IMG/VR virus record: IMGVR_UViG_3300010391_000107
Location: 1-39,860 of that record
Source of the DNA: a virus
DNA: 39,860 bases
Direction: 5' to 3' (one strand)
Every line of letters begins with the position of its first letter. Within the stretch, counting starts at the first letter, position 1. Both the position numbers and the translations under genes were made by a program. A model generated the notes under the pieces. The model had not been told where the DNA came from. It made no database searches and saw nothing but the letters and a program-made list of their open reading frames with translations. Shown here in pieces: positions 12,325-39,860 of the stretch.

Positions 12325-12519
12325 ATGGATCACCCGACACTCAAACCCTGTCCGTTTTGCGGCAGTGCTAATGTTGGCAGATCATTCGACAAACACCCGA
12401 TAGGGCATGAAATCATTGTCTGTATTGATTGCGGCTCACAAGGCCCGGCAAATTATAAAATTGACATTGATCTCGCCGATGCCTGGAATAAAAGACCTGC
12501 TGAAGGTGAAAAGTTATGA
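12325..12519 (+). CDS. Lar-like restriction-alleviation family protein
   Basis: The 64-residue protein matches the Lar pattern: LKPCPFCGSANVG, then IVCIDCGSQGP and a terminal ADAWNKRP. Known members (Rac prophage Lar/RalR) moderate type I restriction by shifting the balance toward modification. Its 3' end lies in the first copy of an 88 bp tandem duplication, and the reading frame is intact. Confidence 0.85.
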   Translation: MDHPTLKPCPFCGSANVGRSFDKHPIGHEIIVCIDCGSQGPANYKIDIDLADAWNKRPAEGEKL

Positions 12520-12647
12520 TAGAAGATTTGAGATCGGCTTTATTTTCAATGGGTTGCATCTCGCCGATGCCTGGAATAAAAGACCTGCTGAAGGTGAAAA
12601 GTTATGATAGAAGATTTGAGATCGGCTTTATTTTCAATGGGTTGCAT
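12472..12647 (+). repeat. 88 bp perfect tandem duplication
   Basis: Bases 12472-12559 are repeated without mismatch at 12560-12647, and CTCGCC begins a third partial copy. The unit covers the last 16 codons of the Lar-like gene and the first 15 codons of the next gene. As 88 is not a multiple of three, both flanking genes keep intact reading frames, and the first copy leaves a 47-codon relic frame starting at 12516 that ends after 12647. Confidence 0.97.
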
Positions 12648-13420: not shown

Positions 13421-13487
13421 GCATAGTGCAAAATTTAAAAAATGAAATCGATTTATAACCGCGCTCCGATTGAGCGCACTGTTAAAC
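13421..13487 (+). repeat. truncated attC-like element I
   Basis: GCATAGTGC, an AT-rich stretch, then GCGCTCCGATTGAGCGC and GTTAAAC. It is an imperfect direct repeat of 13715-13776 but lacks the left arm of the fold. It ends 12 bases before the next small gene's ATG. Confidence 0.6.
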
Positions 13488-13499
13488 TGAGGACAGAAT

Positions 13500-13694
13500 A
13501 TGTCTAATCATTGTTTGCATTGCAACAAAGAATTTCCTGAATACAACAGGATTCCATTATTTTGTAATCGTAATTGTAGTTACAATTATTATTTATCTAA
13601 GCCAGTAGTGTCAAAACAGAATAAACCAAAGCAATCAAACTGCAAAAACATAAATGAGAAACAAATAGATTTATTTGTGGTTTGTGACGCTTAA
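13500..13694 (+). CDS. small zinc-finger protein
   Basis: The 64-residue protein has an N-terminal zinc-finger-like pair HCLHCNKEFP...FCNRNCSYNYY (C-x2-C...C-x3-C) and a basic linker. GAGGA precedes the ATG at 13500 by six bases. Its TAA stop lies inside the GCTTAAC box of the attC-like element. Function unknown. Confidence 0.7.
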   Translation: MSNHCLHCNKEFPEYNRIPLFCNRNCSYNYYLSKPVVSKQNKPKQSNCKNINEKQIDLFVVCDA

Positions 13695-13776
13695 CGCAGA
13701 GCTAACCGGGCGCGGCACAGTGCCTGAAATTTAAACATAGATTGAATCCGCGCTCCGGTTGAGCGCCGGGTTATAC
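13689..13776 (+). repeat. attC-like recombination-site fold II
   Basis: The element runs GCTTAAC (fits RYYYAAC) ... GTTATAC (one base off GTTRRRY). Between them GAGCTAACCGGGCGCGG (13699-13715) pairs with CCGCGCTCCGGTTGAGCGC (13748-13766), leaving two extrahelical bases on one arm and an apical loop of about 32 bases. The upstream gene's stop codon lies in the first box. These are features of integron attC sites; no integron integrase is present in the window. Confidence 0.55.
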
Positions 13777-13792
13777 ATTTTTTGGAGATACT

Positions 13793-14077
13793 ATGAATAT
13801 AAACGAAATAGCACAAAAACAGTTCGATTGGGTTGAACGCATGGGCTGGCATAACAAAACAGCTCTTGAGTCCCTGGCGCTTATTGCAAGCGAAGTAGGC
13901 GAGGCGGTGAACGAATGTCGCGGGGACGTGCCGACACCAGAATTCGGGACAGAACTGGCAGATATTATTTTACGGGTTGCAGACCTGGCGCATTGGCACG
14001 GGATTGATTTAGCCGAAAAGATTGCCGTGAAGATGGCGATCAACGAAGCGCGCGGAACAAGAGGGCGCAAGGTTTGA
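13793..14077 (+). CDS. MazG-like nucleotide pyrophosphohydrolase
   Basis: The 94-residue protein shows the MazG all-alpha fold metal-binding pattern: ALIASEVGEAVNECRG (E-x2-E) and TELADIILRVADLAHWHG (E-x2-D). Phage MazG-type enzymes hydrolyse dNTPs or alarmones. Length is right for a stand-alone single-domain form. GGAG lies five bases upstream of the ATG. Last gene of the rightward operon, convergent with the integrase gene. Confidence 0.85.
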   Translation: MNINEIAQKQFDWVERMGWHNKTALESLALIASEVGEAVNECRGDVPTPEFGTELADIILRVADLAHWHGIDLAEKIAVKMAINEARGTRGRKV

Positions 14078-14090
14078 TGTATAACGCGTA

Positions 14091-14110
14091 ATAGACACCT
14101 TTTAGGTGTA
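14091..14110. repeat. AGACACCT palindrome, copy 1 (intergenic)
   Basis: ATAGACACCT-TT-TAGGTGTAT is an inverted repeat between the convergent mazG-like and integrase genes. It shares its core (AGACACCT...AGGTGT) with elements at 38065-38083 and 39745-39768. A bidirectional terminator role is possible, although the T-runs are weak. Confidence 0.6.
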
Positions 14111-14119
14111 TAAAACAAA

Positions 14120-15229
14120 TTACCATAACATCTCCGCCAAATCAGACCCCCGCAAATTACTGTAACGCTTAAGCATTCTCAAATCCTTATGCCCGGTAAT
14201 GCGGGCAATCTGCACATCACCCAAACGGGTGCGCTCATACAACCGGCATACTGCTTCATGCCGAAGATCGTGAAAGCGCAAATCCTCACAGCCCGCCAGC
14301 ATGGCAATGGTCGACCATTTCCGGCTCAACATGGCCGTAACCTTTATCAACGCCTCCGGCTTGCCGTTCCACCAGGGGAAAATCAGGCAATCCCCACCAG
14401 ACTTCAAACGATCATTAGATGATATCCATTCATCCAATGCGGACAAAGCTACTGAAGACAACGGCACCTGGCGCTTGTCGCCGTTCTTGGTCTTGTCCAG
14501 AAACACCGTTTTCTTGGATAAATCCACCTGCTGAACAGTCAGGGTATACATTTCCCGCAAGCGCATACCCGTCTCAATTGCCAGGGTAAACAGCAAGCAC
14601 ATTGCCAGACGGTCAGCCATGGCAATACCGCGCTGCCTATCCGAAGGAAAGTTGCCGTCCAGCACCCACAAAATCCGCTCATGCTCCCCAGGCAACAACC
14701 GCCTATCGCGCTCGACATCAATGCGCTTTTTGCCATCTGCAGGCGTATAACTGGCGTAACGCTTGGGCAACATCCGCAACGGGTTGACTATTAGCCAGTC
14801 ATTCCGCAAACACCAATCCAGCAACCTGGCCACAGCGCCTACTTTATGCCGTATCGAACTCGGCGCCAGCTGGTCTCGCTGTTTCATCAAAATAACCCAG
14901 CCCTGAACCCATTGCATATTGATCGACGATACCGGCCAACCTTTCAATATATCGAACATTGCATTAAGCAGAACGCGATCAGAAGAGGAAATAGCTACCT
15001 GCTGCAAATACACCCGCGCCCAATCCAACACAGTTTCAGCCGACGGCAAGGCATCCTCCATCAGCTCAACCGGCATAATCCCCTGATCCAATTGCCCTTC
15101 AATGTGCCTGGCATAAGCCACAGCATCCGCTTCGGTGTCAGCCGTAGCATAATGCGCCCTCGGCAAAATCCCCTTGCGCCTGATCACAATTTCCCAACTT
15201 CCAGAACCCCTTTTCCTGATCGTCGCCAC
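14120..15229 (-). CDS. int: tyrosine recombinase integrase
   Basis: The 369-residue site-specific recombinase has an N-terminal arm-binding part (MATIRKRGSGSWEIVIRRKG), a core-binding SAM-like domain and the catalytic domain. Visible catalytic residues are Arg in ETGMRLRE, Lys in TKNGDKRQVP, His/Arg in FHDLRHEAVCR, His in GHKDLRMLKRY and the nucleophile Tyr at the end of that motif. I start at the GTG at 15229 because AGGAGG lies nine bases upstream and the MATIRKR start is typical; a GTG at 15274 would add 15 residues without such a site. It is next to the attachment site in a tRNA-Cys fragment. Confidence 0.93.
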   Translation of the reverse strand: MATIRKRGSGSWEIVIRRKGILPRAHYATADTEADAVAYARHIEGQLDQGIMPVELMEDALPSAETVLDWARVYLQQVAISSSDRVLLNAMFDILKGWPVSSINMQWVQGWVILMKQRDQLAPSSIRHKVGAVARLLDWCLRNDWLIVNPLRMLPKRYASYTPADGKKRIDVERDRRLLPGEHERILWVLDGNFPSDRQRGIAMADRLAMCLLFTLAIETGMRLREMYTLTVQQVDLSKKTVFLDKTKNGDKRQVPLSSVALSALDEWISSNDRLKSGGDCLIFPWWNGKPEALIKVTAMLSRKWSTIAMLAGCEDLRFHDLRHEAVCRLYERTRLGDVQIARITGHKDLRMLKRYSNLRGSDLAEMLW

Positions 15230-15343
15230 TCGTGTAAACCTCCTGCCAAGCCGAAGCAGAGTGGTTTTAACCACTTTTTAAAGTATTTTTAGGTTATTTT
15301 ATGCCATATTTTTACTATTTATGCCAATAAAAAATAACACGCA

Positions 15344-15387: not shown

Positions 15388-15433
15388 TGGAGGCTGCGGC
15401 CGGAATCGAACCGGCGTAGATGGCTTTGCAGGG
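15388..15433 (-). other. attP: attP core: 3' fragment of a tRNA-Cys gene
   Basis: On the minus strand the sequence is the 3' part of tRNA-Cys(GCA): anticodon loop CTGCAAA, stem half GCCAT, T arm CGCCGG-TTCGATT-CCGGC, acceptor CGCAGCC and TCCA. Upstream of the loop the stem half does not pair (ACGCC against GCCAT), so identity to a tRNA gene ends there and the rest of the tRNA is missing. This is the hallmark of an attachment site used by tyrosine integrases that rebuild the target tRNA. Confidence 0.88.
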
Positions 15434-15500
15434 CGTTTAAATTAATTTATATTCAATTGCTTGTAAAATTGGACACTCATATAACCACGCTTGATAGATT

Positions 15501-19492: not shown

Positions 19493-19568
19493 GTAGGGGC
19501 AATCCCTTGTGGTTGCCCGTGATTAATTGTGATTAATTAAAGGGGTGCCCATAAAGGAACACCCCTAC
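19493..19568. repeat. GTAGGGGC/GCCCCTAC palindromic element, copy 1
   Basis: Starts GTAGGGGCAATCCCTTGTGG and ends AAGGAACACCCCTAC with a 76 bp span; each arm is itself partly palindromic. It lies between the genes ending at 19565 and starting at 19477, and the stop codon of the upstream gene (TAG, 19565-19567) is formed by its own end sequence. Confidence 0.85.
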
Positions 19569-23949: not shown

Positions 23950-24023
23950 GTAGGGGCAATCCCTTGTGGTTGCCCTTTGTTGTCCTGATTAACACCCAGG
24001 GCAGGCACAAGGCCTGCCCCTAC
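23950..24023. repeat. GTAGGGGC/GCCCCTAC palindromic element, copy 2
   Basis: GTAGGGGCAATCCCTTGTGG at one end and CCTGCCCCTAC at the other, 74 bp, between the tail tube and chaperone genes. Confidence 0.85.
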
Positions 24024-31413: not shown

Positions 31414-31452
31414 TGTCTTCTCGGTTCATCCCCACGAGTGTGGGAAACATTT

Positions 31453-31514
31453 GTAGGGGCACCCTTTATGGGTGCCCTAAATAGTTAAAGGGCACCCATA
31501 AAGGATGCCCCTAC
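31453..31514. repeat. GTAGGGGC/GCCCCTAC palindromic element, copy 3
   Basis: GTAGGGGCACCCTTTATGGG pairs with its complement ending GGATGCCCCTAC over 62 bp. Confidence 0.87.
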
Positions 31515-31520
31515 AATTTA

Positions 31521-34034: not shown

Positions 34035-34097
34035 GTAGGGGCGGGCTTTATGCCTGCCATATTACATATAAAGGGCGGGCATAAAGCCCGCCCCTAC
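34035..34097. repeat. GTAGGGGC/GCCCCTAC palindromic element, copy 4
   Basis: GTAGGGGCGGGCTTTATGCC... pairs with GGGCATAAAGCCCGCCCCTAC over 63 bp, between the capsid fusion and cement protein genes. Near-perfect pairing makes this the best-preserved copy. Confidence 0.9.
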
Positions 34098-34101
34098 GTT
34101 A

Positions 34102-36165
34102 TTACGCTCCGGCGTTTTTGTAGGCGCCTTCGTAGCCGATGGCACCGACACCGAACGGAAGCTCTACGCGGTAGCTGATGCCGCCGGTGGTGAAATTTTC
34201 TTCCATGGCGACAATCGGCTCGGATTGGCCGTCAAGGAATACGACTTCGATAACGGGTGCAATGGTAGGGTCTGCAAACAGATACCAATCGGTGCCGGTA
34301 ATGCGCGGCGTATCGACTATGTTTTGCACGAGGCCGTTGACTTTATTGGGGCGTTGCAGTTTGTTGGCGGTATCGGGGTCATATTGAGCGCCGACAATAA
34401 CGCGCACATCACCGCCTTTGCCGAGTGGACCCAGCCAGATATTCGGGCGTATATCAAGATATTCATTGCGGCCGATATCCATTTGCTTGCCCATTGCCAC
34501 ACGCGCAGCATCCAGACTGTCAACAGACGGCACGGCACCGGTGCCCTGATAGTTATTGTGGTCGGTTGAAAACAGCGCAAAACCATCTTTCATTGTCGGA
34601 TTGGCTGCAATCAAGGCAAAAACCTTATTTTCGATGGTGCGTTTTGCAGCACGGCCGAAATTGGTGGTCAATGATGCAATAAAACCGATATCGTCATTGA
34701 TGATGACTTCAGGCGTGATACTGATAATGTTGCCGCGGCGCGTGGCAATGATGCCTTCTTTAGCTGCGTCGGGAATCGCTTTTTGCTTGTATTCGCCGGC
34801 TTCATTGACGGCTTCAATATCTCCGATGGAACCAACGCGAAGACGCTGCCATTCGCGGAAATCGGATACCGAACCGATAACACAGAATAACGACCAGGTG
34901 TCAGGCGTCGCCTTGAAGGCGGTCAATACCTGGCGGTGCATGACGTTTTCCATGAGAACAGGAAAATCGCTGGTAGTTTGTCCGAAACCGGCTGCTGCCG
35001 GACGCATAGCCAAAGCGGCTTTGACAATCGACAAGCGGTCCATGCCTTTAACGCTGCGGCCTGAACGCTCGAGTGATGCACGGGCAATGTCTTCCAGGCG
35101 CAAATGTCTAAATTCATTAGCCGGGTCATACTTATCCTTGCCGCTGCGGGCCATAATGCCCTGCGTTACACCACGCGCGAATTTCTCATTATCGGATTCG
35201 CCGGTTTCAACACGGTGCGCGAAATGCCCGGCGGTAGGCTCCAGCCCCTCGCCTAATTTCAAATGCAGTTTGTCGACAGCGGCCTGGACATTTACATTGC
35301 TGTCATCTACACATTGCGCCATCAGATCGGCCACGCCGTTCATTTTGGCAAACGGCGTGAATTTAGCGCGGATGTCGCTGCGGCGCTGGTTTTCTGCAGC
35401 CAGCACTTGGGTCTTGATTTCGGCAGCGCTGGGTTGCGTGGCTTCGACAAGCGGTGTTGGTGCAACGGTTGGGTGTTGTTGGGCGGGTTGAGGTGCAGCC
35501 GCCTGTGGTGTTGCCTGTTTTTCTGGCATGTTAAGCCCCTTATTTTGAGGTTGGGTAAATATTCCGGCGGCTGCCGGAACGGATTTGTAGCGGTTTAAAT
35601 CGAAATGGGCGGAAACCGGCACGGCGGCGGTGACTTTGTTCACCAGATTTTCAGCGGCGGCTTCAGCGGCGGTAAACCAGTGGTCGATGCCGTCAGTTAG
35701 CCAGGCCATTACAGCCTCAGTAGTTTTACCGGTTTTGTCGGCATAGCTGCTGCTCATCGCGCTGGCAAATTTATCCAGCGTATCGGCCATGTCGCGCATG
35801 TCCTTTGAATTGCCGACCGCGCCGCCCCAGGGGGCATGGATCATCATCAGGGCGTTGTCGGCCATTTCCACACTGTCACCGGCCATGGCTATCAATGAAG
35901 CGATGCTGACCGCTACGCCGTCAATGGCGACGGTGGTTTGTGCCTTGTGGCGCTTGATAGCGTTATAGATGGCAATGCCGTCGGATACAGAGCCGCCGTA
36001 ACTGTTTATACGGACTGTCAAAAAATCTACATCGAGCGCGGCCAAATCCTGAACAAACCGCTTGGCAGTTATGGAATCGTCCCACCAGCTTTCGCCGATG
36101 TCGCCATAGATATTGATTTCAGCCGACTTATTGCCTTTCGCTTTGATTTGATACCAGTTAGGCAT
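34102..36165 (-). CDS. ClpP-like prohead protease / major capsid protein fusion
   Basis: The 687-residue fusion has an N-terminal ClpP/S49-type prohead protease (INSYGGSVSDG, nucleophile Ser87 in GVAVSIAS, His110 in MMIHAPWGG), a Gln/Pro/Ala-rich linker (about 205-245) that likely acts as scaffold, and a C-terminal Mu gpT-like capsid protein (FGRAAKRTIENKVFALIAANPTM, DGFALFSTDHNN, WLGPLGKG). Fusions of this kind are known in phages; the protease presumably cuts the capsid part free. I place the start at the ATG at 36165 with GGGA upstream; the earlier ATG at 36225 lies inside a repeat element. Confidence 0.92.
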   Translation of the reverse strand: MPNWYQIKAKGNKSAEINIYGDIGESWWDDSITAKRFVQDLAALDVDFLTVRINSYGGSVSDGIAIYNAIKRHKAQTTVAIDGVAVSIASLIAMAGDSVEMADNALMMIHAPWGGAVGNSKDMRDMADTLDKFASAMSSSYADKTGKTTEAVMAWLTDGIDHWFTAAEAAAENLVNKVTAAVPVSAHFDLNRYKSVPAAAGIFTQPQNKGLNMPEKQATPQAAAPQPAQQHPTVAPTPLVEATQPSAAEIKTQVLAAENQRRSDIRAKFTPFAKMNGVADLMAQCVDDSNVNVQAAVDKLHLKLGEGLEPTAGHFAHRVETGESDNEKFARGVTQGIMARSGKDKYDPANEFRHLRLEDIARASLERSGRSVKGMDRLSIVKAALAMRPAAAGFGQTTSDFPVLMENVMHRQVLTAFKATPDTWSLFCVIGSVSDFREWQRLRVGSIGDIEAVNEAGEYKQKAIPDAAKEGIIATRRGNIISITPEVIINDDIGFIASLTTNFGRAAKRTIENKVFALIAANPTMKDGFALFSTDHNNYQGTGAVPSVDSLDAARVAMGKQMDIGRNEYLDIRPNIWLGPLGKGGDVRVIVGAQYDPDTANKLQRPNKVNGLVQNIVDTPRITGTDWYLFADPTIAPVIEVVFLDGQSEPIVAMEENFTTGGISYRVELPFGVGAIGYEGAYKNAGA

Positions 36166-36176
36166 AATTATTTCCC

Positions 36177-36245
36177 GTAGGGGCATCCCTTTATGGGCGC
36201 CCTCGCTAATTTCATCAATGGGCACCCATAAAGGGATGCCCCTAC
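36177..36245. repeat. GTAGGGGC/GCCCCTAC palindromic element, copy 5
   Basis: GTAGGGGCATCCCTTTATGG pairs with CCATAAAGGGATGCCCCTAC; 69 bp between the portal stop and the capsid start. Confidence 0.9.
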
Positions 36246-36246
36246 A

Positions 36247-37731
36247 TTAATTATTTGAAACCTGATTAACATTTTGCGTTTTATCATTAGCCGGATCGCT
36301 GGTGCTGATCAAGCCCGCTTTTGTTAATTGTCTGCGCCAGCGGGATTCCTGCTCGAGCACGTCGCGCGGGTTGCCGCCGCGTTTGCGGATGATTTCCGGA
36401 CCGGCGATATAACCGGCCCGCTCGCCTTCAGCATTGCCCTTGATTTCCTTTAACGGATCGATCCACGGCATTGACGGGCCGATAAACAGCGCATCATCCA
36501 GCGACAGTGGATCAATATCGGCAGGCACTTTTACCAGGCCGTCGAGGATCGCCATTTTTACAAAAGTTTCCCAGGTCGGCTGCGCGATTTTGCCGACAAA
36601 TTCAGAAGTCAAAACCTGATAATTCGCCCAGCCCTCAACCAGCTCCTGGCGCTGGCTGGAATAGCTGCCGTCGTAATCGCGGGCGATTGTCGAATAATTG
36701 ACGCCGGTGCCGGCGGCAATCGCGCGTAACTGGCCCTTGCGGAATTCGACCAGTTGCGGGTTCGGGCGGCTGGAATCGATCATGCCGATTTCCTCGCCCG
36801 GCATCAGATCATCAAAAACCATGCCGGGCGAAAAGCGCAAGGAGCGTGATGTGCCGTCGCCGTTGGGCTCGTACATATCCGGCTGGCCTTTCTTGATGAA
36901 AGCGGCCATCGATGCGGCGATTTTTGCCGCAATGCGTTCGGATTCTTCATAGTCCTTGATGTCATCTAGCCGGGTCATCACCGAAGTGAATACCGAGATG
37001 CCGCGCAGCTGCATGATGCGCTCGCGAATCGCCAGATGGTTGATGCGGTCGGCGCTGACCGGCGTCAGGTTAAGCGCGATAGAATTAAAAACATTAATGT
37101 CACCGGGATGCTGGCGATACAGATAATAATTGATCGGCTTGCCCCAGCCGTTGCGCTGGATACCCTGGACAATACGCTGCGCCGGATCGTCGTAAATCAG
37201 CGGGCACATGTCCGCTTCCAGCATTTCCAATGTGTACTTGACTTCGGTGCCGTGATCCAGAAAAGGCACGATGCCGGTCAGATTCTTGGTGAAGACTTCG
37301 CCGTCGCGCATCCAGGACCGGCACAGCAGGCGTTGAACCGAAGCCCAGTCGGAAGTGAACGTGCATTCCGGTTTTTTGGCCCAGTTTTTCCAGAGCCGCA
37401 ACAAGGAATCGGCCAGGTCATCGTGAATTTCGCCGCCGAAGGTGCGCGGCTGCGGTTCGATGCCGATGCCGGAAGCGCCGACGGTATTGTTGACCAGCGC
37501 GTTTAAAACGCCCTTGGATAAATCATGGTTGCCGTCAAGGAAGCGTGCCTGGTTGCGCAGATTCGGCCCGGCTTGCGATACCCAGCGGTCGCCGCTGCCG
37601 GAATCGCGGCTTTGCTTGCGCAATACGGTAGGCTTGGCGGCCTCATAAGCCGCCAGAATGTTGCGGGCTTGCGCTCTGCGGACAGCTTTTTCGGGGGCAA
37701 TGGAGGCAATCACGGAATCAAGCCAGTGCAT
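36247..37731 (-). CDS. portal protein, lambda gpB family
   Basis: The 494-residue portal protein belongs to the lambda portal family: RARNILAAYEAAKPT near the N-terminus, WVSQAGPNLRNQARFLDGNHDLSKGVLNALVNNTVG, then GIVPFLDHGTEVKYTLEMLEADMCPL, and FSPGMVFDDLMPGEEI and NPQLVEFRKGQLRAIAAGTGVNYSTIARDYDGSYSSQR in the C-terminal half. It forms the ring through which DNA enters. Its start overlaps the gpW-like stop by TAATG. Confidence 0.94.
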   Translation of the reverse strand: MHWLDSVIASIAPEKAVRRAQARNILAAYEAAKPTVLRKQSRDSGSGDRWVSQAGPNLRNQARFLDGNHDLSKGVLNALVNNTVGASGIGIEPQPRTFGGEIHDDLADSLLRLWKNWAKKPECTFTSDWASVQRLLCRSWMRDGEVFTKNLTGIVPFLDHGTEVKYTLEMLEADMCPLIYDDPAQRIVQGIQRNGWGKPINYYLYRQHPGDINVFNSIALNLTPVSADRINHLAIRERIMQLRGISVFTSVMTRLDDIKDYEESERIAAKIAASMAAFIKKGQPDMYEPNGDGTSRSLRFSPGMVFDDLMPGEEIGMIDSSRPNPQLVEFRKGQLRAIAAGTGVNYSTIARDYDGSYSSQRQELVEGWANYQVLTSEFVGKIAQPTWETFVKMAILDGLVKVPADIDPLSLDDALFIGPSMPWIDPLKEIKGNAEGERAGYIAGPEIIRKRGGNPRDVLEQESRWRRQLTKAGLISTSDPANDKTQNVNQVSNN

Positions 37732-38693: not shown

Positions 38694-39002
38694 TTACCCT
38701 TTTAAAGTGTTTAAATAGGCCACTTTGTAGTCATCAATGTTGTTTCTGTTTTTTATGCTATTAAACGCTATGTCACATACCTCTATCACTAATTCTCTCG
38801 ATTCAATATCTAAATAGCATGATAACGGCTGTGCGTACACACAGTTGGCTACTTCTAAATCACTGTTACTACTAAAATACACTCTTCGGCCTTTTTTCGT
38901 CCAAAGAATGCCACCTTTGGACTGTATCATTCGCCCAAGTTTTTCAAGATCGGATTCAGGATTAGTGAAGCTGTATTTTATTTCCAGTCTCTCTGCTTTC
39001 AT
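38694..39002 (-). CDS. hypothetical accessory protein
   Basis: The 102-residue protein (MKAERLEIKYSFTNPESDLEKLGRMIQSKGG...) has a good GGAG ribosome site. It combines a beta start with a helical second half. No family recognised. Its upstream leader follows an attC-like element. Confidence 0.6.
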   Translation of the reverse strand: MKAERLEIKYSFTNPESDLEKLGRMIQSKGGILWTKKGRRVYFSSNSDLEVANCVYAQPLSCYLDIESRELVIEVCDIAFNSIKNRNNIDDYKVAYLNTLKG

Positions 39003-39109: not shown

Positions 39110-39179
39110 GTATAACACAACGCTCGTGTGGGACTTCGCGCGATAAAGCCGCGCTCAGCCCCACAGCTAAGCGTTAGGC
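39110..39179 (-). repeat. attC-like recombination-site fold III
   Basis: On the minus strand GCCTAAC (39173-39179, RYYYAAC) ... GTTATAC (39110-39116). The arms AACGCT-TAG-CTGTGGGG and CCCACACG-AGCGTT pair with two small bulges, with a further inner GCGCGG/CGCGCG stem and a short loop. The TAG stop of the small gene read on the minus strand falls just inside the element. Same outer boxes as the element at 13689-13776. Confidence 0.55.
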
Positions 39180-39343
39180 ACAAAAACCTTAGCTCGCTTA
39201 AGTCGATTCAATATCTCTTGAAATCCTCTATCTTTTAATCCCTTTAAACCAAACATCATCAACATGGACATATCAGTGTCTAACTGTGCATTTAACGCAG
39301 ACCCGCCGACCTGTGGTGGTTGTAAAACTTCTTGGGTACTCAT
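39167..39343 (-). CDS. small hypothetical protein ending in attC-like site
   Basis: A 58-residue frame begins MSTQEVLQPPQVGGSALNAQ and ends KRAKVFVPNA; its last codons and stop are the first bases of the attC-like fold. The ATG overlaps the upstream stop as ATGA. It resembles small uncharacterised phage proteins (QLDTDMSMLMMFGLKGLKDRGFQEIL). Confidence 0.58.
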   Translation of the reverse strand: MSTQEVLQPPQVGGSALNAQLDTDMSMLMMFGLKGLKDRGFQEILNRLKRAKVFVPNA

Positions 39344-39591
39344 AATTTATTACTTTGTTTAGGTTTCGTGTCCGGCGGGCTGGTTAATGCGGCGTTAGGC
39401 ACTTCTCTTGTAAGGCAGTCGTCGCAAAGAAACTTCCGTTCCCTGTTGTCTCTCGGGTCGTCTCTGTGCGGGCCGCAGTTCATCGTGCAAACCTTGGTTC
39501 TTGAATCAAACTTCGCTAGTTGTGCTGGGTCTGCCCGATGAAATTCAATTGGCTTTGATGCCGCCGGTGATCGGTTAATTTTCTGTTTCAC
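39340..39591 (-). CDS. small zinc-finger-like protein
   Basis: The 83-residue protein starts at a GTG with GGAG eight bases upstream. It carries a Cys pattern CTMNCGPHRDD...FLCDDC that may bind zinc, and ends with SPPDTKPKQSNKL. Near its C-terminus GTGCCTAACGC is again found (EVPNAA). It begins 16 bases after a GTTAGGC box. Confidence 0.58.
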   Translation of the reverse strand: MKQKINRSPAASKPIEFHRADPAQLAKFDSRTKVCTMNCGPHRDDPRDNRERKFLCDDCLTREVPNAALTSPPDTKPKQSNKL

Positions 39592-39605
39592 TTCTCAATC
39601 TCCAG

Positions 39606-39681
39606 CGCCTAACCCGTCGCTCAACCAGTTCTGTCGGGCATGCTGTTTATGCCCGACATTAATTCGCGCAAGATGTTGGGC
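39606..39681 (-). repeat. degenerate attC-like element with inner hairpin
   Basis: On the minus strand GCCCAAC (39675-39681) ... GTTAGGC (39607-39613) fit both attC core boxes. The central GTCGGGCAT-AAACAGC-ATGCCCGAC hairpin is strong, but the outer arms pair poorly. The right part GGTTGAGCGACGGGTTAGGC is very similar to GGTTGAGCGCCGGGTTATAC at 13757-13776. Confidence 0.4.
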
Positions 39682-39744: not shown

Positions 39745-39768
39745 ATAGACACCTATTTAGGTGTCTAT
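39745..39768. repeat. AGACACCT palindrome, copy 3
   Basis: ATAGACACCTA-TT-TAGGTGTCTAT is a perfect 11 bp inverted repeat; the best-preserved member of the three. Confidence 0.75.
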
Positions 39769-39860
39769 TGTTTGCAAAGTATGCCAGAATGCGGCCAGAC
39801 AGGCTAAATGGCCGGCAATTATAATTATGGAATATACAATAAAATCAATATGGTGGAAAT

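Follow-up and report, generated by a model that had tools for sequence, protein, structure and literature searches.

Inverted integron cassettes of a putatively phage-specific type in an uncultured temperate phage with a likely methanotroph host

Integrons are gene-capture platforms of bacteria, and attC sites in phages have hitherto been seen as the result of occasional capture. The locus described here, in which attC-like folds separate small genes beside the integrase gene of a phage, raises the question of whether these folds are integron sites at all, and if so how their genes are arranged and by which recombinase they are moved. The analysis covers a 39,860-nt stretch (positions 1 to 39,860 of IMG/VR record IMGVR_UViG_3300010391_000107), hereafter the window, which belongs to a temperate, tailed phage as judged by a gpA terminase, a lambda-type portal, a protease-capsid fusion, a tape measure and an integrase. 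With a probability of roughly three in four, we consider the window to carry two small integron cassette arrays of an inverted, phage-specific type, the units of which are moved by the integron integrase (IntI) of the host.

The one complete site of the first cluster, attC 1b (Table 1), has the outer boxes GCTTAAC on the left and GTTATAC on the right with the spacers GCAGA and GCCGG, and while the left box fits RYYYAAC, the right one departs from GTTRRRY at a single position. Its 15-bp stem has an extrahelical T and an extrahelical G, both in the right arm, and is closed by a large loop, so that sequence and fold agree with the boxes, paired arms, extrahelical bases and loop that the first-pass annotation had described. 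The upstream stop codon is likewise where it had been placed, since the TAA of the 64-aa ORF sits inside the GCTTAAC box. The single-strand fold is modest by itself (z -2.4, with three of 200 shuffles equally good), and it is because homologues support the fold that the site can be identified as attC: our own covariance model, built solely from 49 chromosomal attC sites that are nearly all from Methylococcaceae, accepts it clearly, which was the check that had been proposed. On these grounds attC 1b appears to be a real integron attC site.

The left-truncated homologue reported upstream, attC 1a, is real but weak, and its homology to the attC family begins at about position 13436. From the right boxes of the two sites to the next ATG the gaps are 12 and 16 nt, within the 12 to 20 bases claimed. 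The recurrence of GTATAAC after the mazG-like gene fared less evenly, for the box is indeed present directly after the TGA, but no attC was found there by the model (9.4 bits, E 3) and it is thus a core box without a hairpin.

Table 1. Coordinates of the cassette clusters and associated features in the window
Feature	Position	Strand	Basis or remark
attC 1a, 5'-truncated; right arm and GTTAAAC box retained	13421-13487	+	covariance model, 16.3 bits, E 0.02
Possible leader ORF MKSIYNRAPIERTVKLRTEYV	13442-13507	+	translation
64-aa cysteine-containing ORF, cassette 1	13500-13694	+	weak PHROG match, unknown function
attC 1b, complete	13689-13776	+	covariance model, 75.4 bits, E 7.9e-21; both bulges in right arm of fold
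MazG-like pyrophosphatase gene, 94 aa, cassette 2	13793-14077	+	PHROG pyrophosphatase, E 3e-19
Closing core box GTATAAC	14079-14085	+	exact complement of the cassette's opening GTTATAC
Phage tyrosine integrase, not integron integrase (context)	14120-15274	-	profile matches
102-aa ORF behind attC 2c	38694-39002	-	ORF list
attC 2c, GCCTAAC ... GTTATAC	39110-39179	-	22.2 bits, E 2.9e-4; fold z -4.4
58-aa ORF	39167-39343	-	ATG in attC 2b loop; end adjoins attC 2c box
attC 2b, GCCTAAC ... GTTAGAC	39278-39400	-	sequence, fold z -3.0; no separate model report
83-aa ORF, GTG start behind Shine-Dalgarno (SD) sequence; cluster 2 cassette	39340-39591	-	ORF list
attC 2a, degenerate, GCCCAAC ... GGTTGAGCGACGGGTTAGGC	39607-39681	-	sequence and fold; full-length model match not significant
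GTAGGGGC...GCCCCTAC palindromes	31451-31516, 34035-34106, 36166-36256, 19493-19518, 23950-23975

A second cassette cluster, on the minus strand at 39110-39681, was exposed by the covariance-model search and comprises three sites in 0.6 kb, one of them model-supported, as compared to the one complete and one truncated site of cluster 1. The window accordingly has the composition of a CALIN, a term for arrays of two or more attC sites spaced no further than about 4 kb apart and lacking intI. The far end of the cassette of the 102-aa ORF behind attC 2c was looked for and not found. Similar AATAGACACCT...AGGTGT hairpins, possibly terminators or cluster borders, flank both clusters at 39745-39775 and 14090-14120. 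Elsewhere in the window, an exact tandem duplication of 88 nt (12470-12645) covers the end of a Lar-like gene together with the beginning of the ORF behind it and is either a recent event or an assembly artefact, and the repeated palindromes listed last in Table 1 form REP-like hairpins between late genes.

In an integron cassette the first bases (TTRRRY) pair with the cassette's own last box (RYYYAA), and the units of both clusters have such complementary ends. In the mazG-like unit the opening GTTATAC and the closing GTATAAC are reverse complements at seven of seven positions, the predicted crossover in the closing box lying between 14084 and 14085, while the boxes of the 64-aa unit are complementary at six of seven positions and those of the cluster 2 units at seven of seven (2a with 2b) and six of seven. 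The exact complement of a site's own box is found downstream in 124 of 177 viral sites, against a mean of 38 and a maximum of 55 when boxes were shuffled between sites (300 shuffles), and the rule holds in chromosomal sites too. By this comparison the ends of the units follow the rule for circular cassettes.

As to the origin of the sites, the exact right-end pattern of attC 1b recurs in 20 viral stretches and a looser version in 71, some of which are chance coding matches, and bacterial genomes yielded 88 stretches, nearly all from Methylococcaceae and often in arrays of up to nine sites in 8 kb. The left half of the site, which was absent from the search pattern, is nearly identical in Methylococcaceae genomes (AGCTAACCGGGCGCGG), the sites entering this alignment having had to contain the short core AGCTAA or GGCTAA. 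IntI scored above the NCBIfam cut-off in 14 of the 16 genomes carrying the attC pattern, in several of them on the same contig and within a few kb. Of 201 Methylococcales genomes, 44 have a two-armed attC pattern, hardly any members of the family turn up among 398 sampled genomes of Pseudomonadota and 369 of Gammaproteobacteria when the query genome G001 is set aside, and two attC queries of the family gave no match among 50,697 isolate phage records. The sites of the window are members of the attC family that is found in chromosomal integrons of Methylococcales. An attP-like stretch at about 15388-15435, upstream of int, furthermore resembles half a tRNA gene and matches a tRNA-like locus of Methylococcales genomes at up to 96% over 45 nt, a match that is consistent with Methylococcales but not decisive as to the host, since tRNA genes are conserved. 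Overall a methanotroph is the likely host of the phage.

The first-pass annotation had recognised the architecture of gene cassettes, and integron cassettes in a phage are indeed what we find, but the polarity implied by that comparison does not stand, since the genes are back to front relative to class 1 cassettes, Tetrasphaera phage TJE1 and the chromosomal cassettes of Methylobacter. The usual cassette gene ends at the R'' side of attC, whereas here the gene starts at that side. When the sites are read along the direction of the gene, attC 1b as well as L290 and L315, two further viral loci, have their extrahelical bases in the right arm, and class 1 sites, TJE1 and Methylobacter chromosomal sites have them in the left arm. 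Which strand is recombined by the integron integrase is established for class 1 attC and for the V. cholerae repeat, and because the extrahelical bases lie in the right arm, the coding strand of the window, at attC 1b the plus strand, would by analogy correspond to the canonical bottom strand, the one that IntI normally recombines.

The inversion is general among viruses with this attC family. The model detected 200 sites in 96 viral loci, and there the gene was called outward 148 times and inward five times, the rest being undetermined, by a codon-usage score that ignores ORF length at sites searched for without regard to genes. The right-hand neighbour of 53 regular-expression sites in viral loci was coding outward in 45 cases and inward in none. 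Chromosomal sites of the same attC family, mostly of one attC subtype, were by contrast outward in nine cases and inward in 68 (Fisher p 9e-25 against the 53 viral regular-expression sites), and such p-values are overstated, though the ratio is not, since sites within one contig or family are dependent and the viral sites are interrelated. A simple longest-ORF caller, which was noisier and was replaced, gave outward to inward ratios of 31 to 21 for viral and 11 to 92 for chromosomal sites, and a dynamic-programming caller gave 38 to 13 versus 7 to 96. The viral records with sites span several phage types, with portals of two families among them. In the window itself, both clusters follow local transcription, one on the plus strand and the other on the minus strand.

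A further property of these sites is that the right arm of the attC is open in the frame CCG GTT GAG CGN. The loop contains an SD sequence and an ATG, with the frame open past the site, at 36 of 188 viral sites, as compared to three of 103 chromosomal sites and four of 193 on the opposite strand, and 13 of the 36 ORFs starting in this way terminate at the cassette's own closing box. The proteins often begin M...RAPVERxV..., that is, the attC arm encodes the start of the protein. The window has two examples, namely the 58-aa ORF starting in attC 2b and the possible leader ORF, which starts in the loop of attC 1a behind a weak SD only, continues across its right arm and extends over the start codon that comes next, with its stop 8 nt inside the next gene. 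We infer from these frames that translation may start from the attC loop.

Units of this kind are common to unlike viral contigs and occur in a host integron as well. L290 and L315 have 350 nt in common at 99.1% identity, corresponding to one unit between unrelated flanks, and the identity begins at the AAC of the left box and stops in the region of the right box. Another viral locus, L078, has five sites in a row, the last unit being a MazG-like gene whose protein is 85% identical to that of the window and whose neighbours differ, and a further L078 unit is found in L261 at 93% with a different attC. On the host side, phage-type inverted units are present in the integron contig of a Methylobacter genome (G008), one of them directly upstream of intI, and a Methylococcales chromosome (G937; L376 and L377) has two 99% identical 3.9-kb copies of phage-type genes with inverted attC. 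These duplicate segments lie among transposase genes. The closest relatives of the window by integrase have other genes in the slot (L076) or none (L077), which shows that the slot is variable and nothing more. With respect to the refuting outcome that had been named in advance, related phages show gene turnover at the sites and not conserved hairpins without it.

The claim that the phage is without an integron integrase is confirmed, as TIGR02249 hits only the phage's own integrase in the window, which scores 23 bits where the cut-off is 265, and the locus is therefore not a complete phage-borne integron of intI and array. An IntI of their own is found in three of 45 related viral records, the virus status of most contigs being the IMG/VR assignment and a few (L002 and G398, the contig of L043) including host integron sequence. 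A full integron integrase adjoins inverted cassettes at L332 and L333 (viral records G398 and G411), where G398 resembles a prophage beside a host integron and in G411 at least three inverted cassettes adjoin intI and a phage integrase. Since the window has no IntI and only these few viral records do, the recombinase of the units is probably the IntI of the host.

That the units are instead moved, in their inverted form, by the phage integrase or XerCD would agree with the missing IntI and with the position of cluster 1 next to the phage integrase gene, but the attP-like stretch matching a tRNA gene lies on the other side of int and is unlike attC, sites with the same features are found in IntI arrays, and three viral records have their own IntI, so that we regard another recombinase as unlikely. 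Segments of integron arrays acquired once by illegitimate recombination and now immobile would leave just such remnants as the truncated 1a, the degenerate 2a and the lone closing box, and for the window's own clusters this may be true; as a general account it is nevertheless quite improbable in view of the 99.1% identical unit in two contexts and the many intact arrays in other viruses, and it leaves the inversion unexplained. Least credible of all is a purely regulatory role, in which the hairpins, as terminators, mRNA stabilisers or leaders for translation, would have spread along with the genes without recombining. Although the sites lie directly before genes and some hold an SD and ATG, they retain the outer boxes, spacers and extrahelical bases of attC, the boxes of a unit agree far more often than expected by chance, and unrelated contigs can have one unit alone in common.

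The view of the first-pass annotation, that ordinary cassettes of normal polarity were picked up from a host integron, is in agreement with the attC family being that of host integrons, and the TAA in the first box and the start codon soon after the last are likewise reminiscent of class 1 cassettes. It is made very improbable by the extrahelical bases in the right arm and by the opposite ratios in viral and chromosomal sites. Furthermore, a search of 201 Methylococcales genomes for the MazG-like gene came back empty (at E 1e-20, which is strict, and with no positive control), which suggests that the cargo consists of phage genes and not of host integron cargo. Normal cassette polarity as such is ruled out by the polarity of the fold together with the orientation of the neighbouring genes.

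In each of the inverted units an attC is followed by a ribosome-binding site and gene and these by a crossover box, with exchange predicted at RYYYAA|C on the coding strand and G|TTRRRY on the other. IntI in the host cell would excise and insert such units in phage, prophage and host arrays, and phages would thereby gain a pool of small exchangeable genes. The reason we prefer for the inversion is that an upstream attC loop can hold an SD and ATG, so that the hairpin would provide the 5' leader or the N-terminus. A captured gene would then need only the promoter of the phage operon and could work in any such operon. However, this cannot be the whole reason, since only about a fifth of the viral sites have a start in the loop, and it is also possible that the coding strand would be exposed in single-stranded form by transcription or co-directional replication. 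The existence of two clusters on opposite strands, each following local transcription, fits both reasons. Given the truncated and degenerate copies, part of the window's array may be dead. We lean, with some reserve, towards a distinct economy of inverted cassettes, in which the hairpin acts as leader or N-terminus, the coding strand is recombinogenic, and host IntI lets phages and host integrons exchange small phage genes.

Among known systems, TJE1 (HQ225832) is like the window in having an attC array with small genes and no IntI and in following the box rule, but it has normal polarity. The sedentary chromosomal integrons of Methylococcaceae (Methylobacter) have the attC sequence family and the positions of extrahelical bases in common with the window, whereas their genes mostly point the opposite way relative to attC and start codons in the loop are rare. 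Class 1 cassettes (aadA1, ant(2'')-Ia, aadA5) likewise have R''/R' boxes, spacers, two extrahelical bases 6 nt apart and a stop codon in or near the R'' box, but in them attC stands behind its own gene and the recombinogenic strand is not the coding one. Qi et al. 2023 (PMC9892861) describe phage CALINs, of which TJE1 is an example, as attC arrays without an integrase and show that some attC sites of phages are usable by IntI1. A term search of that paper and searches of the literature, in which subscription journals are thinly covered, brought up no account of inverted cassettes, and their novelty is provisional.

One attC family is thus common in uncultured viruses and nearly always inverted there, a pattern that is not accounted for by random capture of cassettes from hosts. 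This suggests that phages use the integron integrase of the host as a module-exchange system of their own, with expression independent of the integron promoter, and the rules of cassette orientation, including extrahelical bases, strand choice and exposure by replication or transcription, would become testable in nature.
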